From the NCBI GenBank assembly GCA_013141065.1, contig JABFRR010000018.1:1-64000 (forward strand): a stretch of 64,000 bases of DNA. Reading direction: 5' to 3'. Below are positions 5,429 through 46,687 of the stretch, in pieces. A program made the position numbers and the translations under genes. The DNA is from Bacteriovoracaceae bacterium. GTDB lineage: Bacteria; Bdellovibrionota; Bacteriovoracia; Bacteriovoracales; Bacteriovoracaceae. Numbering within the stretch: position 1 is the stretch's first letter; every line of letters starts with the position of its first letter. Below the pieces are notes generated by a model, which searched no databases, had not been told where the DNA came from, and was given only the letters and a program-made list of their open reading frames with translations.

Positions 5429-6759
5429 ATGAACAAATTATCTATCAATTATTCTCCCTTCGCCAAGTCCCTTTCTTCATTTTCAGGATTAAATTTATTT
5501 GACGACCTGATTCACAAATTCGAAATCAGGAATTTATTCGGCGGAGAACTCCCGAAGAAGCAACGTCAACGTGGTTTCACCTCCTGGAATAAATTTTATA
5601 GTGGCATCCTAGGATTTGTTGCAGGAATAGATTGTCTCGATGACTTCGATTGGTATGGGAATGACCCGCTATTTTTGAAACTTACGAATTCACCATCGTC
5701 TATCACGATGGGAAAGTTTCTGAGAAGTTTTCATTCTAGAAAAGTTGAGGAAATTAGAAACCTTCTCCCTATATTAGCATTTAAAATTCGCCGTAGCCTG
5801 GAACCAAAAGTTCACAAAATTGTGTTCAAAATGGATTCAAGTGATCATCAACAGTATGGATTAAAATCGGAAGGAGTAGCCTTCGGATATAAAAAGTTTT
5901 TGTGCTTGAATTCGCAAAATTTATTTGATGACAAAGGTCTCTTGTATGGATTTAAACTTCGAAGTGGCAATACTCACTCTTGCGTGGATGCCACCGAACT
6001 AATTCATGAAACTTTTTCTAAAATTCCAAAAGATATTAAAAAATATTTTGTCGCTGATTCCGCTTATTCCACAATGGAAATCTACAATTCTCTTATAAAT
6101 CACAATTGCAATTTTGTAATTAACTTGAAGTCTACTTCTTGGAAACCACTTCTGACTAAGAATAGAAAACGCATGAAATGGACGCCAACTAGATTGAAAT
6201 TTTTCGAGTCAAATAATTGCCAAATTTCATCGACATTGTACCCATTAAAAGGTCTTCCTGGCAGAGAGTTTTTGCGAGTAGTTTTCATTCGCACCACTAA
6301 CATCAATCCAACGAAAGAAGATAATTATCCGTATCGCTACTATGCAGTTGTCGCGGACATGAGTGAATCAGAAATTAGTGATGAAAGTTATAAAATTTTA
6401 TCGAAGACGATCACAAGTCGAAAAACAATATTAAAGATATAAAAAATGGAATGGATTTTCATCACTTTCCTTGCATGAATTTAAAAGTAAATAATGTTTG
6501 GGGATTGATTGGTGTGATCGCGTACAACCTGATGAGGTATGCTTCATTTGCAGTTGTGCCCGAAAAAGGATGTTTTTTAGAGACGACTAGAAAAAGAATT
6601 GTAGCGATTGCTGGCGAGGTGATCACTCATGCTCGCTCAATCGAAATACGAATGATGAACTACATTTACAAGGAGGTGTGCAGAGTAAAAGCAATCATGA
6701 ATTCCGTGTTTACGGTAGATGCAAATCGCTTGAGGCCGCATGACGACTTCAAGACATAG
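5429..6759 (+). pseudogene. IS1380-family transposase, frameshifted
   Basis: The first segment (5429-6442) has an N-terminal arm, FKMDSSDHQQYG around the first catalytic Asp and YFVADSAYSTMEIYN around the second. The catalytic Glu region is split: FYRRRSQVEK in one frame near 6400 is followed by KDIKNGMDFHHFPC in another, continuing to IGVIAYNLMRYASF in 6451-6759. Together these match the Y-(2)-R-(3)-E-(6)-K block of IS4/IS1380-type enzymes. At least one shift lies at 6390-6440. The last codons, from VKAIMNSVF, fall inside the tandem array that follows, so the array contains copies of the 3' end of this gene. Confidence 0.75.
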
Positions 6760-18363: not shown

Positions 18364-19703
18364 ATGAGTGAAAGCGATTGGCTAGAAAAAGAATTTAAGA
18401 ATATTGAATTTGGAGATAAAAGACTTCGCGATCGCTTTTTCTCTATGGCGAATATTTTTTCACGACGTCCTGACGAAACTATTAATAAAGCGGTAGTTAA
18501 CTTTGCAGATAAAAAAGCAACTTATCGTCTCTTCAGTCACAAGAATTTCTCGTCAGATAAAATATTATTTGAGCATCGTGAGTCTACTTCTTCGAGACTT
18601 CAAAATGAATCTGTAGCTTTGATGATTCATGATTCTAGCTTTTTTAGCTTCAATTCAAAAAGATCTATAAAAGGCTTAGGTAATATTGGTGGAAAAGCTG
18701 GAGATCAAGAGACTCATGGTTTTATTGGACATTATAGTTTAGCTGTAAATATCAATGATGTACCTCTAGGAGTTATGGCCTTATCAACATGGAGTCGTGC
18801 ATACGATGATATGTGGGAGAAAGAAAGTGATCGTTGGGCAGAGGCAATTTTAGAAACAGAAAAGCATTGTCCTAAAGGCACAAAACTCATTCACGTCGCT
18901 GACAGGGAGGCAGATCAGTTTGAAGTTCTATTTACTTTAATAAAAATAATAAAGATTTTATAATTAGATCCAAGCACGATCGAATAATCGAAAATGGAGA
19001 TCATTATCTTCGCTGGCATTTGAACAAAAAAGAAAACTGATCATGAATTCAAAATATTTCATACGAAGTTAAAAAAAGATGTGGATGCAATTGTAAAGTA
19101 CGGTGAGATAGAATTTTTGATCCTAGCTTCAAACTTAATGGACTTACTTCTGTAAAAAGAAAAGTGGTGTTAAATATATTAGAAATAAGTACGACTGGGG
19201 AAGTTGCAGAGAAAGATCGATTGCACTGGATCTTGCTGACAAGTTTGCCATTGAAAAATTTTGGAGATGCTTCTAGAGTCATTGATTATTATAAGAAACG
19301 CTGGCACATTGAAAATTATTTTAAAATTTTAAAAGATGGCGGATGCAAAGTTGAGAGAGCATCATTAAGAACATTTGAGCGACTAGAAAAATATATCACA
19401 TTATTTTCAGTTATTGCGTGGAGAATTTATTACGTTAAACATTTAGCAGAAGCAGCTCCAGATGAAGATTCAAGTCTTTCTTTTTCAGAAGAAGAATCAC
19501 TCGTTTTGAAAATAGAAAATAAGATATCTGATGATCAAAGAATAACGATTAGAGAGGCCCTACGATTTGTCGCTAAGATGGGGGGCTTTAATGGCCGTAA
19601 AAGCGACGGAGAGCCCGGGACGGTTAGTATTTGGCGAGGATTAATAAAGCTTGAAGCAAAAGTAGAAATGTTCAGATACCTCAAAGAAAAATATCAATTT
19701 TAA
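18364..19703 (+). pseudogene. IS4/IS50-type (Tn5-like) transposase, broken
   Basis: Segment 18364-18963 begins WLEKEFKNIEFGDKRLRDRF and continues DKKATYRLFSHKNFSSDKIL, the Tn5-transposase DNA-binding domain. MIHDSSFFSF and VADREADQFE carry the first two catalytic Asp. The frame is lost at 18940-19160 and resumes at 19164. There YYKKRWHIENYFKILKDGG provides the Y-(2)-R-(3)-E block, followed by a C-terminal domain. The break removes part of the core, so the copy is dead. A 19-bp sequence at 18300-18318 is also found before the IS66-like pseudogene. Confidence 0.75.
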
Positions 19704-23059: not shown

Positions 23060-23467
23060 TTAGGCAGCTATTGAAGTGATTAACTTATAATATTTTTTAG
23101 CCCGCTCAATTATAGGAGTATAATTTGTCGAGTGGACAATATATTCATTTGCACCCATAAAAACTAATTCACACACTTCATCCTCATTGTCATTTTTTGA
23201 AACATAGAGAATAGGTAGTTCTTTTTTTGTTTTAGTGATTCTAATCAAGGAAATAGCTTCAAAACCCGGCATGTCTTTCATATTTTCATTTATAATAATG
23301 AGACTATAATTATTATTAGTTTCGAGAAGATGAAGCAAATGAAAACCACCAATAGCAAGTTCAACTTCAAATTTATCCATTCTTAATTTGGCAGCAAGGT
23401 TATTTCTAAAATTTAAATCTTCGCTTGCCACAAGAATTTTAAAACTAGGCTCTGTAATCACACTCAT
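23060..23467 (-). CDS. Pseudo-receiver (REC-fold) protein without phosphoacceptor Asp
   Basis: A 135-aa stand-alone protein with the CheY-like pattern: ILVASEDLNFRNNL, SLIIINENMKDMPGFE, then PILYVSKND and MGANEYIVHSTNY. The position of the phospho-accepting Asp is Asn60, and the conserved Lys of the 'VxKP' loop is His112. The acidic pair (Glu16, Asp17) and a Ser at the switch position remain. It therefore keeps the fold but probably is not phosphorylated in the usual way. Its ATG overlaps the stop of the large upstream gene (ATGA), indicating coupling. Confidence 0.7.
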   Translation of the reverse strand: MSVITEPSFKILVASEDLNFRNNLAAKLRMDKFEVELAIGGFHLLHLLETNNNYSLIIINENMKDMPGFEAISLIRITKTKKELPILYVSKNDNEDEVCELVFMGANEYIVHSTNYTPIIERAKKYYKLITSIAA

Positions 23468-26400
23468 GATTTTTTCCTAAAGCTTTTTACAGCATTGGTG
23501 ACTAGGTTTTCTGCTTCAGTGTAAATGCGTTGCTGTTCAATTTCATCGATAGTAGTTCCTTTGAATTTTGGTATTAAGACTTTTTCTTTTAAATACATCT
23601 CAGCTTTTTTGCCGTCTGCTGATGTTCTTACTTTTTCCCAGTCAAGTGCATTTTCACCATAGAGTGCTTTTGCAAAAAACTTTTTAACTCCGCTCATTTC
23701 ACTAATTTGTTTTTGTATACCGAGTATGATGACTTTTTCACCAAAACTTGGAGCATCGACGAGCACTTGGATTACACTATCCTTGATTGCCTTCAAGCTT
23801 GCTCTATAGGCTACATTTTTAGTGTCAACATTATCGATTAAAATAGGTTTTAAAACTTTACTCATAACTAGGTCCTTAATCTTACTTCCTTCTTTTGAAT
23901 TAAAAATTTCTTCAAAATTCTCCCTCTTTAAAAGTGCCGCTCTAATGTCCATTGGGACATCTTTTTCAGAAATCGTTGCAAAAGAATCTTTTACCGTCCC
24001 TCTGACGATGGCCTTTAAGAGTTGATCCAAGCCACCACTTTGATAAAGAAAATCGAGTAAATCTTTTTTTGCCTGTGTTGTTTTTGCAACGTCATTAAAA
24101 TCAGTGGCCAAGGTTTCAATTACACCTGCAAGTGTCTGTTTTGCGTTGTCTGGATTATATTCAATATATTGAGAGAGTAATTTTGCCAAAACTTTAACGG
24201 ACGAATCGATATTGGCAGCCAGTTGAGGAGTATAAGGAGAAGAAGGAAATAGGACACTGACGCAAGGTAAGAGATTCGAAAAATCTTGCTTTAAAAGTGT
24301 CGTCGCCGCATCTTTTTGATCTGTGGTCATCCAGCCAGCAATGCTTGATCTTACAATACTCATACCTCGAGAGGTTAGATTATCCGTGCATACCGTTAGC
24401 TTAGTGGTAAGACCATCATTCATATTCACATCTTCTAGGTTTTTCAGACAGGTCTTATAAAGAGCAATCGCATTATCTATGTTTTTCTTTTGTTGATTAT
24501 ATTCTTCGGTGCCTAGTGTTTGTAACATCAAATAATTCATTTTTAATTCGCCTAAGTTATTGGCGAAGCTAAGAGCATATTTTTTTAGGCAATTATCAAG
24601 GTGAGCGCTAAGTTGGTCACCAGCGAGTTTAGCCTCTGTACATTTAGTGAAAGTGTCTTCAACTGTTTTAAGCGTTGGTGGGTATTCGTCTGTGGAAAGT
24701 TGAATTTTGGCTTTAGCACGGCCGTAATTATGCACAATGTTTTTTGTAGCACTTCTTAATAACTCGTCTATACATTCATTAGTGACTAACGATTTACTCA
24801 TACAAGCTTGGAAATTTCCAACAAGTAAACCTCCCAATTCCACGCGCTTTTTCGAGAGATCAAGACCTGGCCGGTCTTTAAGGTATTTTGCCAGTGCGGT
24901 GTTAACTTGGTCAGTACCAACTTCAATCGTCGTTGAATTGGCTATTTTGTCGGAACAAACATAGAGATTTTTTGTGAAATCACTAATCGAAAACTCTGCT
25001 GAATCTTTTGAAGCAAGACATTCCCCAAGAGATTTCTTAAATCGATTTTCAATTAAGGCTTTTTCAGCAAGTCGCTCTGAATACATGGTCCCTAAACTAT
25101 TATTTAATTGAGTTTCACCGAAAAAGAAGGCAATGCTTTTTATAGATTTTTTTATACAAGAATTAACCTGATTCATAACTGGTGCAGAAAGAGGGGCTTC
25201 GATACAAGCTTTATTCGATTTGTTTAAAGAAGTTAAAAAATTATCAACATCAGATTTACTTAATTTGAGTTTATTTAAGCCACCGGCTTTTTCAAGATAG
25301 GCCATAACTTCTTTTGAAAAACTTATTTCTGTGATTTCGAGTGCTGCTTCAATTGATAAAATATTTGAGCATTTTTCCAGAGATGAATCTGTAGGCATTT
25401 CGCCTATGCAGTTGGCAAATTTTTCATTAACCATTTTTTTAATTAAGACACTTGTCTGAGCTTCGCTTAAATTTCCTTTGGCAGTGCTTCGAATTTGATA
25501 ATCAGCAACTTGAAGTGCTACTGCACGTGTTAATTTCCCCGTACACGAATCAATTCTTTGTGTTAAGTCAGTGGACTCTGAAATGTTGCTCGGCAAAGAT
25601 TTTTCTACACACTTTGAGAAACTGGCCACGGATACAACGCTCAGTTCATTTTTTTTCGGCATCGAATCAGGAATGGCTTCAGCGAGCTTTATAGTGGCTA
25701 TTTTTTGTGAAAACGAAATAATGGTTTTTTTCAGGCAAGACTCTCGAGCAAGATTACTTTGTTGGTTGCTCCAGCAGCTATTAAGAAGTTGTAATCCCTC
25801 GTTAGAAGTTTTATTTGATAATGCCTTATCAGACTTAATCGACTTTTGGGCAGTTTCAGTAAGTATTTGGCCGACAACTTTTAAAGTGACTTCATTAGTT
25901 ATAATACGTTTACAGCTTTCAATGTTTAAAAGACCATTAAGTCGTTCACCTTTGGCTTTTTGTCCATCAGCACATATTTTAAACTGTTTTCCTTTTTCAC
26001 TAGCTAATTTTTTAACTTCTTGAGGTGAGAGTTTTTCATTTATTGCTGGAGTGTTTTCAATTTTATCTTGAACTAAAAATGTTCCAGTTGAACCAATGAG
26101 ATTATCGATACAATTCGTAAATTGATCAGTGTAAGAGATTTTTGAATTAACATCCGAACCTACTTTTTTATTACATTCTTCAAATGTCGGCCACACGGCA
26201 ATTTTTATATTTTTACCTTGTTGTGAACTACTGGCTTTAGAGTTAATTATTTTTGTTAATGAGTCTTCTGTAACTTTTAATACACCCGATTTCATACTGG
26301 AAAGTGCACAGGACTTAACATCTGCCCCAGTCGATTCTTTATTCTTTGGTAGACATGTCTTATAAAGATCGGTTTGAGCTTTATTAAAAGGAGATCTCTC

Positions 26401-26994
26401 CATTTCTGGAAGTGCAGGGGTTAGGTTGGCCTTAGAAAGTTCATAAACTATACCAATACCAGTGCTTGGAACTAAACTGGAAATCAATGCATCTAAACAG
26501 TGGTTTGCATCAAATTGAAAATTCATCGCTCCAGTCATACATCCATTAAATGGCTGAACTAATTTATTGACCCAAAGCCTTCTTCTTGCTGGATCAGCTA
26601 CACCTTCTTTTTCTAAAATACGATCTGCAAATTTAGCAATAAGGTTATTTCCTAAAAATTTATAAAAGCTTGTTAAGTTTTCATCTGTTACATCAGTGAG
26701 ATGAGCACGGATACCTTCTTTGACGATTGTTGAAACAAATGAATCGAGCTCACCTTTTAAGGGAAAGTAAGAAGCTAGGTCTTTTTTTCTAGGTTCTACT
26801 CGTGCGTAAACTTTCTTTTCTATATCAACTCGAAAAACACTTGCCGCTTTTGCCGTTAATTTAGAAGTTAAGTAATGACCAAAAGTTGATTCTTGCTTGT
26901 AGTTGATGGGCATTATTAATGAAATACCATCTAACTCACTAGAATTGGCATTATTAAGAAATCCCGTGAGCATTAATATTAGTAATTTTTTCAT
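23464..26994 (-). CDS. Large exported protein with about 12 cysteine-pair helical repeats
   Basis: A 1176-aa protein with a signal peptide (MKKLLILMLTGFLNNANSS). From about residue 150 to 870 it is built of roughly 60-75-residue units. Each has a Cys shortly before a helix and a second Cys 10-25 residues later, for example TCLPKNKESTGADVKSC, ACMSKSLVTNEC and KCTEAKLAGDQLSAHLDNC. I count 12 such pairs plus one single Cys. The remaining C-terminal third is helical without cysteines. Disulfide-pinned helical hairpins in the periplasm are the likely structure. No family is recognised. It is co-translated with the pseudo-receiver gene downstream. Confidence 0.7.
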   Translation of the reverse strand: MKKLLILMLTGFLNNANSSELDGISLIMPINYKQESTFGHYLTSKLTAKAASVFRVDIEKKVYARVEPRKKDLASYFPLKGELDSFVSTIVKEGIRAHLTDVTDENLTSFYKFLGNNLIAKFADRILEKEGVADPARRRLWVNKLVQPFNGCMTGAMNFQFDANHCLDALISSLVPSTGIGIVYELSKANLTPALPEMERSPFNKAQTDLYKTCLPKNKESTGADVKSCALSSMKSGVLKVTEDSLTKIINSKASSSQQGKNIKIAVWPTFEECNKKVGSDVNSKISYTDQFTNCIDNLIGSTGTFLVQDKIENTPAINEKLSPQEVKKLASEKGKQFKICADGQKAKGERLNGLLNIESCKRIITNEVTLKVVGQILTETAQKSIKSDKALSNKTSNEGLQLLNSCWSNQQSNLARESCLKKTIISFSQKIATIKLAEAIPDSMPKKNELSVVSVASFSKCVEKSLPSNISESTDLTQRIDSCTGKLTRAVALQVADYQIRSTAKGNLSEAQTSVLIKKMVNEKFANCIGEMPTDSSLEKCSNILSIEAALEITEISFSKEVMAYLEKAGGLNKLKLSKSDVDNFLTSLNKSNKACIEAPLSAPVMNQVNSCIKKSIKSIAFFFGETQLNNSLGTMYSERLAEKALIENRFKKSLGECLASKDSAEFSISDFTKNLYVCSDKIANSTTIEVGTDQVNTALAKYLKDRPGLDLSKKRVELGGLLVGNFQACMSKSLVTNECIDELLRSATKNIVHNYGRAKAKIQLSTDEYPPTLKTVEDTFTKCTEAKLAGDQLSAHLDNCLKKYALSFANNLGELKMNYLMLQTLGTEEYNQQKKNIDNAIALYKTCLKNLEDVNMNDGLTTKLTVCTDNLTSRGMSIVRSSIAGWMTTDQKDAATTLLKQDFSNLLPCVSVLFPSSPYTPQLAANIDSSVKVLAKLLSQYIEYNPDNAKQTLAGVIETLATDFNDVAKTTQAKKDLLDFLYQSGGLDQLLKAIVRGTVKDSFATISEKDVPMDIRAALLKRENFEEIFNSKEGSKIKDLVMSKVLKPILIDNVDTKNVAYRASLKAIKDSVIQVLVDAPSFGEKVIILGIQKQISEMSGVKKFFAKALYGENALDWEKVRTSADGKKAEMYLKEKVLIPKFKGTTIDEIEQQRIYTEAENLVTNAVKSFRKKS

Positions 26995-27169: not shown

Positions 27170-27199
27170 AAGTCGACAAACTTTTCAATGAGGTGTTTC

Positions 27200-28042
27200 A
27201 TGAAAAAATCGTTCTTAAAATTATCTATGCTTGCTGTTCTTGCTAGTTGCGGTGGTGGTGGTGGTGGAAGTGCTCCGGCTCCAGTTCTAAGTGCGTACCA
27301 GAATCCCTCAATCTTAGCTTCTGAATTTGTTTCTTCACTTAACTCTGTTGATTCGACTTATTCGTCTAGAGTTGAACTCTACACTAATGAGACTTTAAGA
27401 TCAGGAGTAGTTGGTCAAGATGATTGGTTCGTTATCTACGACGCAAAATTTAGCGAATACAAAGCAGTAAGTCTTCAGTACGTTCGTTCAATTGTTTACT
27501 ACGATTACTATGCTAATAACTCTGCAGTAGCTTCTGAATTTAGAAAAATTGAAAGAGATGATGTTTTAGCTGGAAGTGTAAACGGGGATTTCTACGGAAA
27601 TGACTACGAAGTTGTAGATAGATTATCTTCTGGTTACTACGAAGGTCGTCAATCAGGTTACCTATATGAAGACGAAGCAGGTTCAACAGATGTTTCTCTA
27701 CTTGCAAAAGAACAAGAACAAAAGAAATTTTTCGAAAAAGCAGCTAAGGTATCTTTCGTTTATAACGTAAGCTTAGAAACTTCTATGTCAATGATCACTC
27801 TTGGATCAAAAATGGAAAAAATGCTTTCACGTGCTAATGGTGAATTAACACAAGAAGATCAAGCAGCACTTTTAGGAGATCTTAAGACTCTTACAGGTGT
27901 TAGTTTAGAAGAACTTCAAGCAGCTTCAGAAAGCAATACTGCTAAAGATGAAGTTCTAGCTAAAGTTGCAGCTAAAATTGGTACTTCTGCTCAAAATTTA
28001 GAGCAAAAATTCTTACCAGAAGTTTTTGGATTAACTCTCTAG
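27200..28042 (+). CDS. Lipoprotein paralogue 1, unknown function
   Basis: The ATG at 27200 has GAGGTG in front and gives 280 aa; the in-frame ATG at 27188 lacks a ribosome-binding site. The lipobox LASC is followed directly by GGGGGG and a short PAP spacer. The mature domain is acidic and Tyr-rich (SIVYYDYYANN, DRLSSGYYEGRQSGYLYEDE), with a helical C-terminal third. It is about 80% identical by eye to the product of 28287-29222, so the two arose by tandem duplication. The Gly linker and lipobox place it on the outer membrane or cell surface. Its function is unknown. Confidence 0.7.
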   Translation: MKKSFLKLSMLAVLASCGGGGGGSAPAPVLSAYQNPSILASEFVSSLNSVDSTYSSRVELYTNETLRSGVVGQDDWFVIYDAKFSEYKAVSLQYVRSIVYYDYYANNSAVASEFRKIERDDVLAGSVNGDFYGNDYEVVDRLSSGYYEGRQSGYLYEDEAGSTDVSLLAKEQEQKKFFEKAAKVSFVYNVSLETSMSMITLGSKMEKMLSRANGELTQEDQAALLGDLKTLTGVSLEELQAASESNTAKDEVLAKVAAKIGTSAQNLEQKFLPEVFGLTL

Positions 28043-28286: not shown

Positions 28287-29222
28287 ATGAAAGCACTTTT
28301 AAAATTATCATTACTCGCAATACTTACTACACTGGCAAGCTGTTCTGGCGGCGGCGGTGGTGGATCTACTGGCGGAGGTGTTTATTATCCACCTACAACA
28401 GGCGGAGGCTCAACTGGAGGCGGCTCAACTGGGGGCGGATCAACTGGTGGTGGAAGTACATCTACTTATGGTGCTTACCAATCAGCGAACGTATTAGCTT
28501 CAGAATTTGTTTCTTCACTCAACTCTGTTGACTCGACATATTCATCTCGAGTTGAACTCTACACTAATGAAACATTAAGATCACAAACAGCAGGCCAAGA
28601 CGATTGGTTTGTTATCTACGACGCTAAGTTTAGCGAATATAAAGCAGTAAGCCTTCAGTACGTTCGCTCAATTGTTTATTACGATTACTACTCTAACAAC
28701 ACAGCAGTTGCTAAAGAGTTTAGAGAAATTGAAAGAGACGATATCATCGGTGGAAGCCTAAATGGTGACTACTACGGAAATGACTATGAAGTTGTTGATA
28801 GATTATCTTCAGGATACTACGAAGGTCGTCAGTCAGGTTACTTATATGAAGACGAAGCAGGATCAACTGATGTTTCACTTCTTGCTAAAGAACAAGAACA
28901 AAAGAAATTTTTCGAAAAAGCAGCTAAGGTGTCTTTTGTTTACAACGTAAGCTTAGAGACTTCTATGTCAATGGTAACATTGGGAACAAAAATCGAAAAA
29001 ATGCTTTCACGTGCTAATGGAGAGTTAACTTCAGAAGACCAATTAGCATTAATGGGTGACATGAAAACTCTTACAGGAGTAACTTTAGAAGAAATTCAAA
29101 AAGCTACTCAAAGTGCTGATGCAAAAGAAGATGTTATTGCAAAAATTGCGAACAAGCTTGGTACAACAGCATCAAACCTTGAGCAACGTGTATTACCTGA
29201 AGTTTTCGGTATCACTCTTTAG
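28287..29222 (+). CDS. Lipoprotein paralogue 2 with GGGST-repeat linker
   Basis: A 311-aa paralogue of the preceding protein. Its lipobox LASC is followed by six Gly and then a longer linker with four STGGG-type repeats (about residues 27-58), after which the shared domain starts at ANVLASEFVSSL. GGGGGG at 28269-28275 serves as Shine-Dalgarno. The linker repeats are encoded by near-identical 15-bp units and could vary in number. The two proteins share almost all of the mature domain, differing mainly at the linker and near the C-terminus. Confidence 0.7.
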   Translation: MKALLKLSLLAILTTLASCSGGGGGGSTGGGVYYPPTTGGGSTGGGSTGGGSTGGGSTSTYGAYQSANVLASEFVSSLNSVDSTYSSRVELYTNETLRSQTAGQDDWFVIYDAKFSEYKAVSLQYVRSIVYYDYYSNNTAVAKEFREIERDDIIGGSLNGDYYGNDYEVVDRLSSGYYEGRQSGYLYEDEAGSTDVSLLAKEQEQKKFFEKAAKVSFVYNVSLETSMSMVTLGTKIEKMLSRANGELTSEDQLALMGDMKTLTGVTLEEIQKATQSADAKEDVIAKIANKLGTTASNLEQRVLPEVFGITL

Positions 29223-29418: not shown

Positions 29419-30785
29419 ATGGGGCGGCAAGCAAATAAATTAAAGGTAGAAGAATGTCATGAGATTATTTTGAAAGAATTTTCAAAATTTAGGGAAAAAA
29501 GACCAATTTTTGAAATTCCGCTCAATAATTTTTTAATGTCGAGTTTTGCAGTTTTTGCGCTGAAGTCACCATCCCTCTTGCAGTTTGAACAACACTTTAC
29601 AGAAGAAAAAACAAGAAGACATAATCTCAACTCACTTTTTAAAATTGATCGAGTTCCATCGGACACACATTTACGAGATGTTTTAGAAACGGTAGAATAC
29701 GCTCAATATCGCCCTGTTTTTCAACGATTATTTTCATACATTCAAAGATCAAAAACTCTTGAACAGTTTGAGTTTATGAAAATAAATGGTCAATCACATT
29801 ATTTATTAGCAACAGATGGCTCTGGCTATTATCGCTCAGAAAAAGTCGTTTGTGATTGTTGCATGATCGAAGAACATTTTGATGAAAATAATAAACTGAC
29901 ACTTAAGTTTGGCCACAACATCTTAGCAGGTTCAATTGTTCATCCAAATTTTAGACAAGTCATTCCAATGTGTCCTGAACCTATCATGAGGGTTGATGGC
30001 CGAAGTAAAAACGATTCGGAACAAACAGCATTTAGAAGATTTTTAGAGGATTTTAAAAGAGAGCATCCTAAGTTGAAAATTATTTTTTTACTTGATGCTC
30101 TGTATGCCAATGGGCCAATTATCAAATTGCTCCGAGAGTATAAATATGAATTTATAATTGCGGTAAAGGAAACGAAAAGTCTTCTATTTATGCTTGTCAA
30201 AGAAGGAGAAACCACTGGGGAAACTCAATTTTTGGAAACAAGTTTTGAATTTGGTGAAAAAGTTATCAAAACAACTAAAATGAATTATAGATTTGCAAAC
30301 AACGTAAGGCTTCATCAAGACAAAGACAGTCCATTTATAAATTTTGTTCAAGTTAAAGAAGTTACCGAATGGATTGGAAAAAAAGGCAGACCTGAAAGAA
30401 TCGAACGTAATTTTACATTTATTACCGACATACTAGTTACTAAAAATAACATTGCACAACTTGCAAAAGGAGGCCGTACTCGTTGGAAGATAGAAAATGA
30501 AACGTTTAATACTTTGAAGAATAGAGGTTATAATTTAGAACATAATTATGGGCACGGAGAAAAAACTTAACACATAATTTTATAATGAGTATGTTCCTGG
30601 CATTTTTAGTTGACCAGATTCAAGAAATTAGTTGTTACACATTTAAGAAATTAATTGAAAAATATGAACAAAAATCCCGCTTGTGGAAAAAGCTTGAAAG
30701 CGGTTTTGAGTTTCTAGAGTTTTCTAGTTGGGATCAATTTTATTATCGAATGTGCTATAATGAAATGCCACCGTCTTCTGGGTAG
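29419..30785 (+). pseudogene. DDE (IS4-like) transposase with a frameshift at an A6 run
   Basis: Segment 29419-30570 encodes LLATDGSGYYRSE (first Asp), KIIFLLDALYANGPII (second Asp) and WKIENETFNTLKNRGYNLEH, with the Glu followed by NYGHG. The frame then stops after GEKT. The -1 frame continues NLTHNFIMSMFLAFLVDQ to 30785. The shift sits at AAAAAAC (30560-30566). Either the gene is disrupted by one base, or the A-run lets ribosomes or polymerase slip. No clear terminal inverted repeats were found by eye. Confidence 0.7.
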
Positions 30786-31019: not shown

Positions 31020-32222
31020 ATGATTAAGGGTTTGCTCACGTTGTTTATTTTATTGGCCGTAACAATTTCATCAGCTCAGGCAGATTATCATGTCACCGCT
31101 TATAAGAATGAGACTATTGATGTGAATAAACCAACTCGATTACTTCTTGCAGGCAATGGTGATAATTTGGGATTGCTTTTTCAAGAAGTCGCAAAAGCAA
31201 AGGCCATGAAATATAAAGAGCTTAATTCTGAAGAACAAATTGTTTTCATTGCGATAAAAGAAAAAGAGTATGATAGTGAATCATCTCTTGTTCGTTATGG
31301 TTTTAAAGTCATTCGAAATGAGCGAGCTTCACTTGATGGAAAAGAGTTTATTTCCGTTGCACTCGCGTTTAAAAAAATTCTCTCTCTTGATATTTTTAGC
31401 CATAGTTCTGCTCAATTCGGCATTCACCTTGATGGGCGTGAAAATCGTTTAAATACTAAAACCCAAGGCCTAGAAAAATTAAAATCAAATTTCACTAAAG
31501 ATGCTTTTGTTTATTTGCATGGTTGTAACTCAGGATTTAACCTAGCTCCTTATTTGGCCAATATTTGGGGAGTACCTGTTGCAGGTTCGATGACTTCCAC
31601 AAATTTTCAAAAATTACACTCAGATGGAAATTTTTATTTAAGTGAAGAAGGTTTTGCACCCAATACCGATTGGGCATTAACTAACACATTATCTTATGAT
31701 TCAGAATCATCTTGTGCCAAAGGCGCCTGCCAGAGACTCAAACCCGACAACACACCTTATGTGGGATTTTGGGGTGCTTATAGACAAGGTGGCCTGCCTT
31801 TTTATAAATTCTTTTGCCCAAAAAATAATGCCGAGACTTGTCTTAAGGCCATGGCCAATTCTCTTGTATCACACACTCTTAAGGTGAATTTAAAACGCGA
31901 CAGCACTTTAGCCGATTATAAAAAAGCCGTGGTAGATTTTCTGTGTCCGGTTAGTTCAAAAAGTGACTTAAGAGGTGAATGTGCAGCAAAGTTAGAAGAA
32001 GCTTTAGTGACTCTTGATTACACTTATAATCCTTTTTCAAGACCTCAAGTCGAATGTGATTTTAATAGCTGTAAGGTTGAAATTTCTTGTGGAAAGGTAT
32101 TGTTCACTGGGCTTCCCAAACCCGGAACGTGTGAATTAAAAAACAATTACCAAGGTAAAGCCACGACTTTAGTTCGTGAATATAAGGCCTATCTTGATGC
32201 CTTTAACTATCTCAAGAACTAA
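31020..32222 (+). CDS. Exported protein with caspase-like His/Cys signature
   Basis: A 400-aa protein with a signal peptide (MIKGLLTLFILLAVTISSAQA). Around residues 120-170 it reads LSLDIFSHSSAQFGIHL and then DAFVYLHGCNSGFN. The beta-strand/His (His128) followed by strand/Cys in HGCNSG (Cys169) is the pattern of clan CD cysteine peptidases and related DUF4347/CHAT-like domains. The C-terminal part has six further cysteines (CAKGACQ, CPKNNAETC, CEFNSC-like), fitting an extracytoplasmic location. TAGGAG provides the ribosome-binding site. Peptidase activity is not established. It is followed by two more exported proteins in the same orientation. Confidence 0.55.
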   Translation: MIKGLLTLFILLAVTISSAQADYHVTAYKNETIDVNKPTRLLLAGNGDNLGLLFQEVAKAKAMKYKELNSEEQIVFIAIKEKEYDSESSLVRYGFKVIRNERASLDGKEFISVALAFKKILSLDIFSHSSAQFGIHLDGRENRLNTKTQGLEKLKSNFTKDAFVYLHGCNSGFNLAPYLANIWGVPVAGSMTSTNFQKLHSDGNFYLSEEGFAPNTDWALTNTLSYDSESSCAKGACQRLKPDNTPYVGFWGAYRQGGLPFYKFFCPKNNAETCLKAMANSLVSHTLKVNLKRDSTLADYKKAVVDFLCPVSSKSDLRGECAAKLEEALVTLDYTYNPFSRPQVECDFNSCKVEISCGKVLFTGLPKPGTCELKNNYQGKATTLVREYKAYLDAFNYLKN

Positions 32223-32357: not shown

Positions 32358-35300
32358 ATGAAAAAAATTAAATTAAATCTCTTGGCGATTAATCCTTTAT
32401 TGTTGGGTTTGCTTATTTCAATAAGTAGCTCACTGACTTTCGCAGGAGAGTCGTTTATTCCACTTCAAAAAGGGCTTAGAATAGCCAGTGATGACTTAGT
32501 CTACAATGACCAAGTTCTTTCTTCAAAAGAAGCAGACCGCCTCGCGAAGGATCAGCAAGTTAACCTCGCAAATCTTAATCCACTTGAAAATGATATTTGG
32601 TCAGATCAAGTGACAAATATTTTGGATCAAAAAAGTATTGCTATAAATGAATTGGATGTTCTTACTTATGAAGGAGCTTTAAGCTCAAATTCTGGGTTAT
32701 TTCGTTTTAATGCAATTCCGGTAGATGGAAATAAAATCTTTACCATTCACTTAGATAAATCACTGCACTCTATGCTTTTAAGAAAAAATCTCTTACGTGC
32801 TCTCGGATATAAAGTCCCTGCAATGAAATATCTCAAAAAAGTAACAATTCAATTTAATAATAAATTTGCACTGGAAAATTTCCTAAAAAAAGAAATTCCA
32901 GAAGCGACCCTTGGAGCTTCTGAACGCTGGGCCACTTCGAATTTAGTGACTCAAGACTTACTAAGTGTAACTTTACGTGATGTAGCCATTTCAGAACCAA
33001 ACGAATTTGATTTTTACAATGTTTCGATGGGACTTCCAACACAAGTAATTAATAGCCGTACATTAAGAGGGCTGGCCTTGCCATATGCTTTAGTTGATCT
33101 TTATGAAAGTATTAATAAATTTAGTTGGGTGAGCTGTAAAGTCGATAACAAGGCAGTTATAGTTCCTCATTTTACAAGCAATGACTTTGCGACAACGATT
33201 GATGATGCTGCGTGGATGTTAGGAAGAATGAATCGACTGACTCGAGCTGAGATTCAAAAAATTGTAGCAGAATCCTATATGCCAAAAGAAGTTGAATTAA
33301 TATTAGTAGAAAAGATTATTTCTAGAAGAAATGCACTCAATCGATGTTTTCAAGTCAAAACTCCAGAAATAGCTTTCAATGCAAAAATAAACGGTGAAAA
33401 TGTTAAAGAAGGAAAACTTTTAAAGAAAGAATATTCTGATTACGCATCACGCTTTGCCTATGGAGATGCAGAATCTCCATTAGAACAATTAAGATTTTTT
33501 CTTTATTCTAAACTCCAAAGCAATGTAATTGATAATTTAGTTAATCGATTAAATTCTGAGTTAGTAACTTTCGATCTAAGTAAAAAAAGAACTGAATATT
33601 TTCAAAACCAATTTAACGAAGGACTAGATCATTTTGTGAAAACAGGTGAATTACTTCCTATTAAAGTTGGATCATGGGTAGAGCCTATGTTTGGATTAAA
33701 TCTGATTCTTTCAAGAGATATCATCCTCGGAAATTATCTTGGCACAGATAACTTAGTTCAATTAGCAGATACTTTTGGTGCTGGTGTAGATGTGGGTGTT
33801 TTTGTCGGGATTGAAGGACTCGGATATGACATTGCCCCAAGTTTGAAGGTAAGTACCTCTTTAGTCAGAACTTATACTCACTTGAAACCAGTGAAAAGTT
33901 TGAAAGAAAGTTTGAAAGAAGATTATCGAAATATGTTTGTAGGCTTAATGAAAAAGTCCCTTAAAGAGACTTTCTTTTCTCTAAGTGAATTAAAACAAAT
34001 CGATGCAAAAGATGGAGAAGAGCAAACTGAAGCAAAAGAAACTCAGAGAAAAAAGATCGAAGAGCTTTTTAAAGAAATCGATAAAAACTTAAATGTAGGT
34101 GAGTCACTTATTATAACTGATAAATTGTTGCCTTCAGCAACACTTAAAATTAATTACAATCAAGGCTTGGTTGGTGCAGGTGTTGGTATTGCAGGGAGTG
34201 CCACTGTTTTAAAGCGAATACACCTTTATAAGAAAAGTCCAAAAATTCTACAAATTTATGATGATAGTGGATTTGTTAAAAATATAGACTTATCTTTTCA
34301 GGTGAGCAGCTATATCAATCTTATAAGACTAAATGGGGCCATTGATAAAGGTCATTACAACGTAAATTCTTATATGGTCAATCTCTCGACTGACCTAAGC
34401 GAGAATCCAAATTTATTTACCAATGCGCTTGGAGTTTTTAGTGTTCTTAAAAATAGAGATTTTGAACTTTTAAATAGCAATAATCCACCTGTTAAATTAG
34501 ATGTGCAATTTAAAGATAAATCAAAAGGTCTCTCGGTTTTATTCTGGAAAATGAAATCCCTAACTGGAATGACCTATTTTGACATCAAGGCTAAAGATGG
34601 TGTCCAGGGAACATATTTCAGTCTAGAAAAAGATTTTTTAACGGGACTAAATCCAGAAGCATTTTCAAAGCAACTACTAAATTATTATCTGGTGAAAAGT
34701 GATTTGGATAATGTTCAAATTACCGAAGAAGCAGACAAAAATCCAGGTGAAACATTTTTTGGAAAATCACAGACTCAAAAAATTAGATTTGAGGCAGTGG
34801 TTGGTAGTGATAAAAAATTTGGTCAGAAATTTCTCGCACTTTCAGATATAAAACAAGGTTGGGCAATAAGTGAAAAGAAATTAAGAAAATTTATGTTGGG
34901 TGTAAATACTAAGTTTCAAGAAAACCTTTTTGAACCAGACGCAATTGATTTTAAAAAGATGCGTCTTTTTAGAGTTGGTTACCATATGAATATCTATAAC
35001 CGTGGACTAGAAAGACTCCACAGCATCAAGGCAGAGGATATTAATCCCCTTGAAGTTAAGTATAAACAAGAACGTTTTTGCCAACACGATAATCCAAACA
35101 GTAGAAGTGCACAATGTGGAGATCTTAATTGGATAAAGTCTTTAATTAAAAAATGTCAAAAACCAATGAATGAAGAACTTAAAGCAAGTTGTAGCGTAAG
35201 TTTATTTCAAAAAATGATGGATGATTTAAATTTTAAAGATTTTCAGAAACTTATTGGTGAAGATAATCTTTATGTTTATGGATCAATAGATGGATTCAGA

Positions 35301-35453
35301 GAAAAGTCTGAAATCTTAAATGACACAGTTTTTTCAAATACTATTGGTAAAATTGGAAATAAGCAGTGGAATGGACCTTTAGAAGTTGTTAGAGATCTTC
35401 TTGGATTATCGGCCGGTGAAACCAGCGGAAGCTGGATTCGCCAAAGATTGTAG
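32358..35453 (+). CDS. Large exported protein, unknown
   Basis: A 1031-aa protein with a signal peptide (LLAINPLLLGLLISISSSLTFAG). The middle holds Gly-rich beta segments (VGAGVGIAGSATVLKR, VGVFVGIEGLGYDIA). The C-terminal third has a cysteine-containing stretch (FCQHDNPNSRSAQCGD, KKCQKPMNEELKASC). No family is recognised. The gap to the protease gene behind it is 12 bp (TAGGTAGGCATTAAAATG), so they form an operon. A periplasmic or outer-membrane role linked to the protease is plausible but not shown. Confidence 0.6.
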   Translation: MKKIKLNLLAINPLLLGLLISISSSLTFAGESFIPLQKGLRIASDDLVYNDQVLSSKEADRLAKDQQVNLANLNPLENDIWSDQVTNILDQKSIAINELDVLTYEGALSSNSGLFRFNAIPVDGNKIFTIHLDKSLHSMLLRKNLLRALGYKVPAMKYLKKVTIQFNNKFALENFLKKEIPEATLGASERWATSNLVTQDLLSVTLRDVAISEPNEFDFYNVSMGLPTQVINSRTLRGLALPYALVDLYESINKFSWVSCKVDNKAVIVPHFTSNDFATTIDDAAWMLGRMNRLTRAEIQKIVAESYMPKEVELILVEKIISRRNALNRCFQVKTPEIAFNAKINGENVKEGKLLKKEYSDYASRFAYGDAESPLEQLRFFLYSKLQSNVIDNLVNRLNSELVTFDLSKKRTEYFQNQFNEGLDHFVKTGELLPIKVGSWVEPMFGLNLILSRDIILGNYLGTDNLVQLADTFGAGVDVGVFVGIEGLGYDIAPSLKVSTSLVRTYTHLKPVKSLKESLKEDYRNMFVGLMKKSLKETFFSLSELKQIDAKDGEEQTEAKETQRKKIEELFKEIDKNLNVGESLIITDKLLPSATLKINYNQGLVGAGVGIAGSATVLKRIHLYKKSPKILQIYDDSGFVKNIDLSFQVSSYINLIRLNGAIDKGHYNVNSYMVNLSTDLSENPNLFTNALGVFSVLKNRDFELLNSNNPPVKLDVQFKDKSKGLSVLFWKMKSLTGMTYFDIKAKDGVQGTYFSLEKDFLTGLNPEAFSKQLLNYYLVKSDLDNVQITEEADKNPGETFFGKSQTQKIRFEAVVGSDKKFGQKFLALSDIKQGWAISEKKLRKFMLGVNTKFQENLFEPDAIDFKKMRLFRVGYHMNIYNRGLERLHSIKAEDINPLEVKYKQERFCQHDNPNSRSAQCGDLNWIKSLIKKCQKPMNEELKASCSVSLFQKMMDDLNFKDFQKLIGEDNLYVYGSIDGFREKSEILNDTVFSNTIGKIGNKQWNGPLEVVRDLLGLSAGETSGSWIRQRL

Positions 35454-35465
35454 GTAGGCATTAAA

Positions 35466-38369
35466 ATGAAAAATAATAAAATTGCATTGATCTTACTACA
35501 AACCTTAATTGCTTTTAGCTCACAAGCTGAAGTATCAATTTCAGATCCATTTTACTCTAAGCAATGGCCAATGAAAAATTCAGGTCAAGTTATTTTAAAA
35601 AATATTTCTGATCTCGAACGAGTTCAGGTCAAAGGTGTTCCTGGAGTTGACATTAATTGGGTTGATACTGAAAAAGTAACGACTTCCAAAAAAGAATTAG
35701 TTGTCGCAGTCATTGATAGCGGCGTGGATGTTGATCATCCAGACCTTAAAGGACGTATTTGGTTTAATGATAAAATTTGTTCTCCGGAAGTAAGTACTCC
35801 AAATAGGGCCTGTAATGGTTTTAATTTTATCGATAACAACACAATTTTAACAGATGACATCGGTCACGGCACTCATGTCGCCGGACTCATTGCTGCCAAC
35901 AGAAATTCAATTGGTATTGCAGGTGCTGCTGACTCTCGAATTAAAATCATGCCATTAAAATTTGTTAATAGCCAAGTGACTTCTTTTACCTATAACGGCA
36001 AAGTGATCACAGACATGATTGCAGACGCTATGATTTTTGCGGTTAAAAATGGAGCTGAGGTCATTAACTTAAGCCTTGGTTGGCCTAAATTAATTGATTT
36101 GCCGAAAGTGCGTAAAGCTTTTGAGTTGGCCGAAGAAAATAATGTAATTGTTATTGCTGCTTCAGGAAATAACAGTAAGGACCTTCCACTTTTTCCTTGC
36201 AGTTACGAAAACGTTATTTGTGTTGGAGCTATCGACAATAGGGGGGAGTTAACTGATTTTGCCAACTATGGTTCAAAAGTTGATATCGTCGCACCAGGGG
36301 ATTCAATCATCAGTACTTACCCAAGAATGCTGGAGTCACGCGTTCTGAGAATTAAAAACTATGAGTCTAAGAGAGGCTCGAGCCAAGCTTCTCCTTTTGT
36401 TGCTGCAGCAGTGGCAAATTTAAAATTGCTTCATCCCGGACTTACTAATGATCAAGTGAGAAGTTTACTTTTTAGAAGCTCTAGAAAACTACCTACTTCT
36501 AGTGGTTCTCGATTCACAAAGTTTGGATTACTCGACATGAAGGCCTTGTTGGATTTAGCGAATGAAGAATATACAGAAGAAGGCAATGTCGCGAAGCCAT
36601 TTATTAATCCTCAGTTAAAATCTCTTACTGAAATAAAATTTAAAGCTTTAGATCGCAAGTTTAATTTTGTTTTAGACTTAAAAAATCTTTCAAACAAAAA
36701 AACTTCAAGCAAAGTTTGTCTAAAAACTGAGAACACCGCTATTGTCATTGATCAAAAATGTTTTTCAGCTATTTTTGAAGAAAATCAAAAAATTGTAAGT
36801 CTACCTATATCTGGAAATATTGAAAATTTAAATTTGGATTCACATATTAATTTTGAAATCAGTATCGATAAAAATGTCTATCAAACCAGCTTGGTTTTTA
36901 GTCGTGACTTAACAAATGACAATCAATTAATTTCTCAATCTTTGGGGCGGGCCAGCTTTGAAGACATGGGAGTAATCGCCGGAGAGCGCAGACTTTCTCG
37001 CATGACCAGGGTCTTTGATAAACATAAGCGTATTAATTATCCAGAATATTTTTATCTAGAAAAATTAAAACAAACTGAAACTCAGACCTTAGTTTCCTTA
37101 CTTACAAAATCCGGAGATCAGTTTGCCGTAAAATCGATAAGCCTTCCTAAGGTCAATCGAGTTCTTTCTATTCATAGACAAGATATTAACCTCGATGGAA
37201 AAATCGATTATTTCCTCTATGCTTTATCAAATAAAAAAGATGAACTTCTCTTTTTTATTTTGGATGAAAAACTAAATCCATTATTTAAATCGCACCTCTT
37301 TTGGAGTTTTAAATTATCAACTTTTGAAGGTTTGCCAATTGAGGGTGGAGTTGAAAAGTTTGAATGGTTGAAAATTCAAAATTCTGCACTTGGAACAATA
37401 CTTGTGCCTTCCCTTTATCGTAGTTATACAATGCCAGAAATTGATAACTCTAAACTTATCAGTGAGCGAGTTATCGGTATAACACCTCATCAGTTCTATT
37501 TAAATCCAGTTGAAAACGCTGGTCGTATTGAAATTGAATTGAGAGTTATTGATTCAGTAAAAACTGTAAAAACTCTAGAGAAAAAATTAGGAATTTCAAA
37601 TTCATTTGATACAAAGACATTACTCGTACAAAAGCCATTTCCACAAACTGAAAACGAGAGTCGTCAGGGAGTTATTCGCTCTTTAGTTGTCGTCGATGAA
37701 GACGGCGTAGGAAAACTTAGTGAAGTGACATGGAATGCAACTGACTCTAACTCGATAAAAATCACGAGTCTAACGACTGAAAGTGAAATTAGTCAGTCTC
37801 TCCAGTATCCTATCGTTAACAGTCAGTCTGGAGAAATTATTGCTGACTCCATATTTACGACACTTCTGAATCGTTCACGTGCAGAGTTTTTGGTTAAAAA
37901 AGAAGCTGACATTGGTTCTATGTCTCAACTGAAAGATAATTGGGAAAATCCTATCATCTCACTTATGGCCACCTTTGAATCATTAACTGGTCTTACCTAT
38001 TTTGTAGAAAGCCGTGCGACGGTTACAATGCTTCGTGCCAATGGCGCCAAAGCTGTCTTGCCAGTTTATCGAGATTCTAGTTTTCCCGGACAAAGCTTTT
38101 CTGAAACGCTTACGCCAATAATTGCAGAGGGACGTCCTGGCATTTATATTAATTCAACTTTGATTTACGGCGAACGTCTTTACAGCATGATAGATACACA
38201 ATCGCAGGGATTTATTAGGCCCTTGAGTCTTTCCATTGCGATTCCAGCCGGGTGTATCCCTTTATTGCCGGAGACTTTAGGAGATAAAACCTTGGTGCAT
38301 TATACATTTTTGTGCATTGACTCCTCTAAGGAAGTCTCAATGAAATTTCTTCCTATGTCGCAGCTTTAG
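35466..38369 (+). CDS. Secreted S8 (subtilisin-like) serine protease
   Basis: A 967-aa protein with a signal peptide (KIALILLQTLIAFSSQA). Its catalytic domain spans about residues 75-355: VAVIDSGVDVDHPDL with Asp84, DIGHGTHVAGLIAANRN with His134, oxyanion ASGNNS with Asn234, and RGSSQASPFVAAAVANL with Ser305. There is no pro-region of usual length before the catalytic domain. The C-terminal 600 residues are an extension without a recognised domain. It shows beta-rich segments and DINLDGKIDYFLYAL, similar to FG-GAP/integrin-type repeats. It follows the 1031-aa gene by 12 bp. Confidence 0.9.
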   Translation: MKNNKIALILLQTLIAFSSQAEVSISDPFYSKQWPMKNSGQVILKNISDLERVQVKGVPGVDINWVDTEKVTTSKKELVVAVIDSGVDVDHPDLKGRIWFNDKICSPEVSTPNRACNGFNFIDNNTILTDDIGHGTHVAGLIAANRNSIGIAGAADSRIKIMPLKFVNSQVTSFTYNGKVITDMIADAMIFAVKNGAEVINLSLGWPKLIDLPKVRKAFELAEENNVIVIAASGNNSKDLPLFPCSYENVICVGAIDNRGELTDFANYGSKVDIVAPGDSIISTYPRMLESRVLRIKNYESKRGSSQASPFVAAAVANLKLLHPGLTNDQVRSLLFRSSRKLPTSSGSRFTKFGLLDMKALLDLANEEYTEEGNVAKPFINPQLKSLTEIKFKALDRKFNFVLDLKNLSNKKTSSKVCLKTENTAIVIDQKCFSAIFEENQKIVSLPISGNIENLNLDSHINFEISIDKNVYQTSLVFSRDLTNDNQLISQSLGRASFEDMGVIAGERRLSRMTRVFDKHKRINYPEYFYLEKLKQTETQTLVSLLTKSGDQFAVKSISLPKVNRVLSIHRQDINLDGKIDYFLYALSNKKDELLFFILDEKLNPLFKSHLFWSFKLSTFEGLPIEGGVEKFEWLKIQNSALGTILVPSLYRSYTMPEIDNSKLISERVIGITPHQFYLNPVENAGRIEIELRVIDSVKTVKTLEKKLGISNSFDTKTLLVQKPFPQTENESRQGVIRSLVVVDEDGVGKLSEVTWNATDSNSIKITSLTTESEISQSLQYPIVNSQSGEIIADSIFTTLLNRSRAEFLVKKEADIGSMSQLKDNWENPIISLMATFESLTGLTYFVESRATVTMLRANGAKAVLPVYRDSSFPGQSFSETLTPIIAEGRPGIYINSTLIYGERLYSMIDTQSQGFIRPLSLSIAIPAGCIPLLPETLGDKTLVHYTFLCIDSSKEVSMKFLPMSQL

Positions 38370-45815: not shown

Positions 45816-46295
45816 TCATAATTTCAACCAAATCATTGCACAGGCTAAACTCACCATTCCAACATAGTTCCTTTTTAACTTATCGTATCTAGTAGCAATG
45901 GCTCTATTGTGTTTAAGTCTAGCAAAATTATTTTCAACATGGTGTCGTTGTTTATAGATAAATTTATCAATGTCATCATTACCAACTTTTGAATTATTTT
46001 TCCTCGGAATCATTGGTATTGAATCACATTCTCGAATGAGCCATCTTAAATATTCTCCATCGTAACCCTTATCTGCAATTGTATAAGTGCTCTTAGGCGT
46101 TCTCTCGATGAGCTCACTGGCCGTCTGAATGTCGTGAACATTTCCTCCTGTGATTTCAAAGTCAACAGGGTTTCCATGGGAATCTGTCACCATGTGAATT
46201 TTTGAAGTATTGCCAGCGACAGATTTTCCGATAGAAGTATCGCTGCCTTTTAGCCCCACAACTATGCTGATGAGATTTAACAATACTTCCATCAA
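45816..46295 (-). CDS. IS5-family transposase, C-terminal ORF
   Basis: 159 aa containing DTSIGKSVAGNTSKIHMVTD and IADKGYDGEYLR, then YKQRHHVENNFARLKHNRAI. It carries the second catalytic Asp and the Glu region (VENNFARLKH) of the DDE core. It overlaps the upstream ORF in the -1 frame. A shift at 46246-46252 (TAAAAGG on the coding strand) would join them to a single transposase. Confidence 0.75.
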   Translation of the reverse strand: MMEVLLNLISIVVGLKGSDTSIGKSVAGNTSKIHMVTDSHGNPVDFEITGGNVHDIQTASELIERTPKSTYTIADKGYDGEYLRWLIRECDSIPMIPRKNNSKVGNDDIDKFIYKQRHHVENNFARLKHNRAIATRYDKLKRNYVGMVSLACAMIWLKL

Positions 46296-46563
46296 TCATT
46301 TTCCATTCGTAGTCGGGATCCTTAGCGAGTCGTTTAAAGATTGACATTAATTTTGATTTTTCTGACCAGTCGTTAAATCTTTTAAAGATTCGATTCCAGT
46401 CTCCAAAATCCTTAGGTAGATCACGCCAGGGGCAACCAGTCCTCATTCGAAACAGTATAGCTTCAACTGTTAATCTAAGACTTTTCTTGTCATATATTTT
46501 AAATTCTTGCATGATAATAAGTAACTTGAACCACTGCTCTTCATTGAGCATTTTTCGAGGCAT
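46162..46563 (-). CDS. IS5-family transposase, N-terminal ORF
   Basis: The start at 46563 (MPRKMLNEEQWFKLL) has AAGGATTTG in front. The protein has the IS5 N-terminal DNA-binding part (RMRTGCPWRDLPKDFGDWN) and KMIDGSIVKSHQHSCGAK with the first catalytic Asp. It then leaves the conserved frame, which continues in the overlapping ORF. This is the classic two-ORF arrangement with programmed -1 frameshifting in the IS427 group. Confidence 0.75.
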   Translation of the reverse strand: MPRKMLNEEQWFKLLIIMQEFKIYDKKSLRLTVEAILFRMRTGCPWRDLPKDFGDWNRIFKRFNDWSEKSKLMSIFKRLAKDPDYEWKMIDGSIVKSHQHSCGAKRQRYFYRKICRWQYFKNSHGDRFPWKPC

Positions 46564-46687
46564 AGGCAAATCCTTTTGTTGTAGTTTGGTCACCACAAGT
46601 TTAAGGATTTGCTTTTATTTTGGCATACGGCCCTGTATTAAAACTTCAACAGCCCCTACTATAAAGTCATAAATAAATTCATAATAA

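Follow-up and report, generated by a model that had tools for sequence, protein, structure and literature searches.

What might a bacterium build from a protein with twelve regularly spaced cysteine pairs? The question is raised by a minus-strand gene in a 64,000-nucleotide stretch of contig JABFRR010000018.1 (Bacteriovoracaceae bacterium, assembly GCA_013141065.1; hereafter the window), which encodes a protein of 1176 amino acids (aa), the window protein. We followed this gene through its cysteine spacing, predicted structure, relatives and neighbourhood. A cysteine ladder, a helical pattern, differences in unit number, a superfamily and a common C-terminal domain were all well supported, and the role of the window protein and its relatives looks structural.

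The cysteine ladder and its predicted fold

The 25 cysteines of the window protein are arranged as 12 pairs and a lone Cys at residue 911. Partners within a pair lie 10-22 residues apart, and the stretches between pairs span 42-55 residues; counted from residue 152, the gaps are 14, 48, 15, 45, 21, 46, 20, 46, 13, 42, 22, 45, 13, 55, 16, 46, 21, 51, 10, 44, 17, 47, 20 and 42. The regularity was scored as short gaps of 9-24 residues alternating with long gaps of 25-90, ranges that were picked after inspection of the data. Results showed that 24 of 24 gaps alternated, and none of 200,000 random placements equalled this value (best random, 19). An earlier note on this DNA had proposed about 12 cysteine-pair repeats, a count that was borne out. 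Its regular pairing was also recovered, with a unit period of 54-72 residues (mean 63) that is slightly below the 60-75 it had given. The stretch from the second cysteine of one unit (C2) to the first cysteine of the next (C1) is nearly constant in length (coefficient of variation 0.08), and the C1-C2 loop is variable (0.23). This is the pattern expected from a staple at the loop end.

A full-length AlphaFold model, built from 13 sequences, was all helical save for traces of strand, with a predicted local distance difference test score (pLDDT) of 77.4 and a predicted template modelling score (pTM) of 0.42. By region, pLDDT was mostly 80-93 for residues 20-540 and about 80 for the last 180. Residues 100-570 modelled alone (units 1-7) gave a pLDDT of 87.2 and a pTM of 0.70. 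A short helix A alternates with a long helix B in the models, so the structure prediction that the earlier note had called for does show repeats. In 11 of the 12 units, helix A continues for 0-7 residues past C1, and C2 is found 2-10 residues into helix B; C2 of unit 9 falls within a low-confidence stretch of the model. These results agree with the note's description of repeated helical hairpins with equivalent cysteines. When unit profiles were compared with one another, 8 of 66 pairs reached a probability of at least 50% and 3 of 66 reached at least 90%, compared with 0 of 396 for column-shuffled profiles. The units have the cysteine and helix pattern in common, and only a few have more.

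Relatives, superfamily and C-terminal domain

Homologues were sought across the phylum (368 genomes, including the 129 of the window's family) and by two pattern-based contig scans. Within the family, 40 of 129 genomes matched at E up to 1. Strong matches (E 5e-11 or better) came from 17 of those 40, the window's own genome included; the others were weak, and weak matches such as L027 and L028 were discarded as probable chance. When named genomes were scanned with the guidance of a profile, 12 loci (L031-L042) emerged, most of them on the same contigs as the family-search loci and therefore not independent evidence. The single-protein scan of genome contigs gave 20 pattern matches and the viral contigs gave 8, none of them a relative. 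The earlier note had suggested looking for homologues in predatory bacteria. All 12 named loci are titled Bacteriovorax sp. or Bacteriovoracaceae bacterium, names from a group that includes known predators.

The paired cysteines are strongly conserved. Of 22 cysteine columns scored in an alignment of 16 homologues, 21 were invariant, and the invariant share of other residue types was 0-20%, except for Trp (3 of 5). Throughout subfamily 1 (18 members, including L088 and L089 from another family in the phylum), the 24 paired positions hold only Cys or a gap. A paired Cys is absent only where its surrounding segment is absent, with 0 substitutions; L089 lacks most cysteines of units 10-12. The number of units also differs: proteins of the window type have 12 pairs, and L008-L014 have 10, in which the stretch of units 8-9 is absent and the 13-spacing type occurs in two consecutive units. 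A single origin of this ten-unit class was considered and set aside, as the tree had poor resolution, with stars on 2 of its 15 inner branches, and the group needs two changes. Twelve units as the older state is suggested by one hint, their presence in L006 and L088.

Weak C-terminal matches to proteins of 1300-1435 aa from other genera were the first lead to a larger group. When the last 192 residues were made into a profile, it matched 52 of the 368 phylum genomes at E up to 0.01; a wider C-terminal profile from 22 sequences matched 55 at E up to 0.001, of which 50 belong to the 129 genomes of the window's family and 5 to the remaining 239. The window protein matches the profile of this domain (~190 residues) at E 1e-57. 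Residues 893-1176, about a quarter of the window protein, thus form a separate C-terminal domain which goes beyond the earlier note and ties together a larger superfamily. The 38 proteins compared fall into four subfamilies: subfamily 1 (n = 18, 1025-1225 aa), subfamily 2 (n = 9, 1147-1456 aa), subfamily 3 (n = 8, 1476-1962 aa) and subfamily 4 (n = 3, 1339-1519 aa). This set omits truncated or odd members (L017/L048, L090, L096, L097) and C-terminal-profile matches that were not retrieved.

All six comparisons between subfamilies by hhalign gave E 1e-15 to 1e-47 over at least 870 columns, several with secondary alignments in shifted register, as expected of repeats. Consensus cysteines coincided at 12 of 14 positions between subfamilies 1 and 2, at 17 of 17 between 1 and 3, and at 15 of 15 of those of subfamily 2 between 2 and 3 (expectation < 0.4). 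Between subfamilies 1 and 4, 17 of the 24 subfamily-1 cysteines meet a Cys when letter case is ignored and zero otherwise, the subfamily-4 consensus being lower case. Cysteines of subfamily 3 are retained or lost by unit, with both kept in 8 units, one in 1 and none in 3 (exact chance 0.011; 5, 5 and 1 for neighbouring-unit pairing). On these alignments, the window protein is a member of a superfamily with an equivalent cysteine ladder and a common C-terminal domain.

A proposed stapled scaffold and its rivals

The window protein is apparently exported, as a signal-like N-terminal stretch was recognised by eye in it and in its relatives. After residue 45, no 19-residue window exceeded a hydropathy of 1.6 in 36 of the 38 proteins, and the other two had one each. 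DsbA-like and DsbB-like genes are present in the genome. The scarcity of hydrophobic segments and the Dsb-like genes make oxidation of the cysteines outside the cytoplasm plausible, and the same genes, together with the unit-wise retention and loss in subfamily 3, indicate that disulfides probably form within units. The disulfide-pinned, periplasmic hairpins of the earlier note are compatible with these observations, although we no more than infer them.

We give a probability of roughly one half to the reading that the protein is an alpha-solenoid scaffold of the periplasm, stapled by disulfides and ending in a C-terminal domain for docking or capping. It would be exported via its signal peptide and, once outside the cytoplasm (in the periplasm, most likely), would remain soluble and fold into an elongated alpha-solenoid. 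Each unit would be a hairpin of helix A (~18-25 residues), a variable loop and helix B (~27-34 residues), held by one disulfide at the loop end that runs from the end of helix A to about two turns into helix B and is formed by the cell's Dsb system. The near-constant stretch from C2 to the next C1 would fix the stacking, the variable loops would line one edge, and other envelope components would use the long surface as a scaffold or adaptor. In the superfamily as a whole, the conserved C-terminal domain would serve for docking or capping, and protein length would be altered through gain or loss of whole units. We count for this reading the ladder beyond chance, the helix positions of the cysteines, the unit-number variants, the cross-subfamily cysteines, the Dsb-like genes, the scarce hydrophobic segments after the N terminus and an SH3 domain in one subfamily-4 member.

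Several results weigh on the other side. With cysteines masked, just 2 of 66 unit pairs (6-7 and 1-10) stayed at 50% or above, so the sequence evidence for repeats beyond the cysteines is thin. The pLDDT dropped to about 60 at residues 550-740 and about 52 at 890-960, and with the low full-length pTM, the long superhelical shape put forward in the earlier note is not established. Foldseek with both models returned no row at E 1e-3 or better, and the best solved matches were insignificant. L007 lacks C1 of unit 4 and its segment, yet retains the partner C2. Unit-wise retention (both, one, none) is weak in subfamily 4 (7, 3, 2; chance 0.19), and the cysteines of subfamily 2 are not retained by unit (4, 4, 4 versus 3, 6, 2 for neighbouring-unit pairing). 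Because the subfamilies have no gene partner in common, the genomic context yields weak leads only, and compartment, bonds and clients are all putative.

Other roles were weighed on the same evidence. The stapled solenoid could be released from the cell or into prey, where it would bind the prey envelope or carry enzymes such as the subtilase encoded upstream. The named relatives are Bacteriovorax and metagenome-assembled genomes (MAGs) of Bacteriovoracaceae, a group known for predators, and the upstream genes of the window encode further exported-looking proteins, one of them an S8 subtilase. We consider a prey-directed role unlikely, however, as a C-terminal domain found in only 55 of the 368 phylum genomes is not a general part of invasion, conservation on the subtilase side does not extend across the subfamilies, and the MAG organisms are presumed predators only. 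A self-assembling envelope strut, that is, a rod of stacked units joined end to end or via Cys 911 with its length set by unit number, would fit the long all-helical model, the conservation of that lone cysteine, the 10- and 12-unit versions and the longer subfamilies. Such a strut seems quite improbable, because self-association is hypothetical and found no support in the analysis, and because conservation of the C-terminal domain across subfamilies suggests a specific partner over a plain strut.

The paired cysteines might instead serve a redox or metal-binding task, as a thiol buffer or metal store, with the helices as a mere carrier. This idea draws on the 24 paired cysteines that are never substituted in 18 members, but a spacing of 10-22 residues with partners on two helices does not resemble metal or redox motifs of the CxxC type, few of the remaining residues near the pairs are invariant, and the DsbA-like and DsbB-like genes make an oxidising compartment likely. 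It is very improbable on these grounds.

Nothing above cut-off was found for the window protein in Pfam, NCBIfam, PHROGs, PADLOC or PDB sequence searches, in keeping with the earlier note, which had placed it in no known family. Sel1/TPR profiles gave no Pfam-A hmmscan match for the window protein (E up to 10) or for 16 homologues (E up to 0.1). DUF445 (PF04286) was rejected, since only 2 of the 16 homologues matched it at E up to 0.1 and the window protein did not; the best match, L009, had E 4.5e-7 and 30.5 bits versus a curated cut-off of 33.8. With the full-length model, the leading Foldseek rows included HEAT/ARM-type proteins (nucleoporins, CAND1, importins, neurofibromin; E 5e-3 to 0.3), alpha-solenoid proteins that are cytoplasmic or nuclear, unlike the exported-type window protein. 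Units 1-7 gave a best E of 0.14. The best VIA Z values for the two models were 7.1 and 7.2, the latter (units 1-7) inside the stated noise for helical repeats. Chains of Hcp or Sel1-like repeat (SLR) proteins were absent among the fold-search matches listed for both models.

Disulfide-bonded helical repeats are known; what is new, and the larger result, is the cysteine-ladder superfamily and its scale. The cysteine-rich Helicobacter proteins HcpB and HcpC, which carry Sel1-like repeats, are exported alpha/alpha repeat proteins in which a single disulfide in each repeat fixes the packing, and Hcp proteins are considered interaction scaffolds (PMC3851747, PMC2581425). Their repeat length is given as 36-38 residues (PMC3851747), and according to a 2008 statement just three repeat proteins, HcpB and HcpC included, had by then been reported to contain intramolecular disulfides (PMC2581425). 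The window protein resembles these in its helical repeats with one (here probable) disulfide each and in a variable loop on one side with a constant length on the other; its cysteine positions in the predicted helices would be compatible with Sel1-like disulfide packing of neighbouring helices. It differs in its period (54-72 versus 36-38), in the lack of a Sel1/TPR or PDB sequence match and in its superfamily-wide C-terminal domain. As period and profile differ, we do not regard it as a Sel1-like/Hcp member. The repeat region of Helicobacter pylori CagY is likewise a long array of helical modules with regular cysteines and a varying unit number, but its modules measure 38-39 aa and carry Cys in 4 of the 6 submotifs (PMC2581425), and CagY is a component of a type IV secretion system. 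Compared by description, the two are similar only in principle. No description of the present family was found in the accessible portions of the open-licence PMC literature, PMC5760749 included.

If the scaffold reading is true, these proteins would greatly scale up the Hcp-type design, to 1000-2000 residues and ten to twelve stapled hairpins, and would offer a natural template for redox-locked solenoids, and a Bacteriovoracaceae envelope component would have been invisible to the family libraries searched. If sent to prey, they would add a new class to the predation proteins. Tentatively, the paralogues may together make up a modular envelope scaffold system of Bacteriovoracaceae, in which giant periplasmic alpha-solenoids with an intra-hairpin disulfide ladder and a common C-terminal docking domain vary by whole units and adjoin differing envelope enzymes (subtilase, rhomboid, amidase).

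Genomic setting

Table 1. Features of the cysteine-pair gene and its neighbours in the window
Feature	Position	Strand	Basis or remark
Entire gene for the 1176-aa all-helical, exported-type protein with Cys-pair repeats	23464..26994	-	open reading frame, Cys spacing, AlphaFold
Signal-peptide-like N terminus, residues 1 to ~19	26938..26994	-	by eye; low pLDDT at 1-17
Cys-free N-terminal helical region preceding the repeats, residues 20-128	26611..26937	-	sequence, AlphaFold
Twelve Cys-pair helical hairpin units, residues 129-892	24319..26610	-	spacing, unit profiles, AlphaFold, alignment
Cys pairs of units 1-6	residues 152/166, 214/229, 274/295, 341/361, 407/420, 462/484
Cys pairs of units 7-12	residues 529/542, 597/613, 659/680, 731/741, 785/802, 849/869
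C-terminal domain, residues 893-1176	23467..24318	-	last 192 residues common to all four subfamilies
Lone Cys 911 codon	24262..24264	-	conserved in 15/16 homologues
Receiver-domain protein, 135 aa, downstream gene	23060..23467	-	Pfam Response_reg E 9.5e-12; overlaps stop of Cys-pair gene by 4 bases
Gly-rich lipoprotein-like protein, divergent neighbour	27188..28042	+	conserved in 11/12 named loci; association only
Second Gly-rich lipoprotein-like gene	28287-29222	+	sequence similarity
400-aa exported-type Cys-rich protein	31020-32222	+	sub-threshold DUF4347 match, E 4.6e-4
1031-aa exported-type protein without family, directly followed by 967-aa S8 subtilase	32358-38369	+	subtilase E 1.2e-47

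In 11 of the 12 named loci, a receiver-like gene comes next, followed by a gene that we take to be isocitrate-dehydrogenase-like, and a divergent Gly-rich gene lies upstream; L041 lacks all three. The position that we presume to be the phosphorylated Asp is N or H in 12 of 12 aligned receivers, and on account of this replacement the receiver protein of the window is probably a pseudo-receiver. The two Gly-rich lipoprotein-like genes share 84% identity over 249 residues, which points to a recent duplication, and neither matched a Pfam family above cut-off. An equivalent of the 400-aa Cys-rich protein was present in 10 of the 12 named loci. A defence system was considered and rejected, as the neighbours match only a subtilase model and, weakly, IetS.

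The other subfamilies have neighbours of their own. Opposite the subfamily-2 genes (L043-L046, L049-L051, L093, L095) stands a divergently oriented gene for an exported-type protein of ~320-350 aa; the L049 copy is cut off. The L043 copy had no Pfam match, and by BLASTP the divergent neighbours in subfamily 1 showed no homology to those in subfamily 2. Directly upstream of 7 of the 8 subfamily-3 genes (L091, L092, L098, L099, L103, L104, L105) lies a gene of 295-308 aa, which was a rhomboid protease in the three tested (L091, L103, L104). The subfamily-4 member at L102 (3248-7807, plus strand) carries an inserted bacterial SH3 domain at residues 1113-1169 (E 2.3e-9), and an N-acetylmuramoyl-L-alanine amidase gene at L101 (1977-2732, plus strand; E 5.6e-42) directly precedes another subfamily-4 gene. 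As leads, the SH3 domain and the adjoining amidase point towards peptidoglycan.

The window also holds transposase genes at 5429-6442, 18364-19703, 29419-30570 and 45816-46596. The Tn5-like second and the IS4/5-like fourth are each split across two reading frames.

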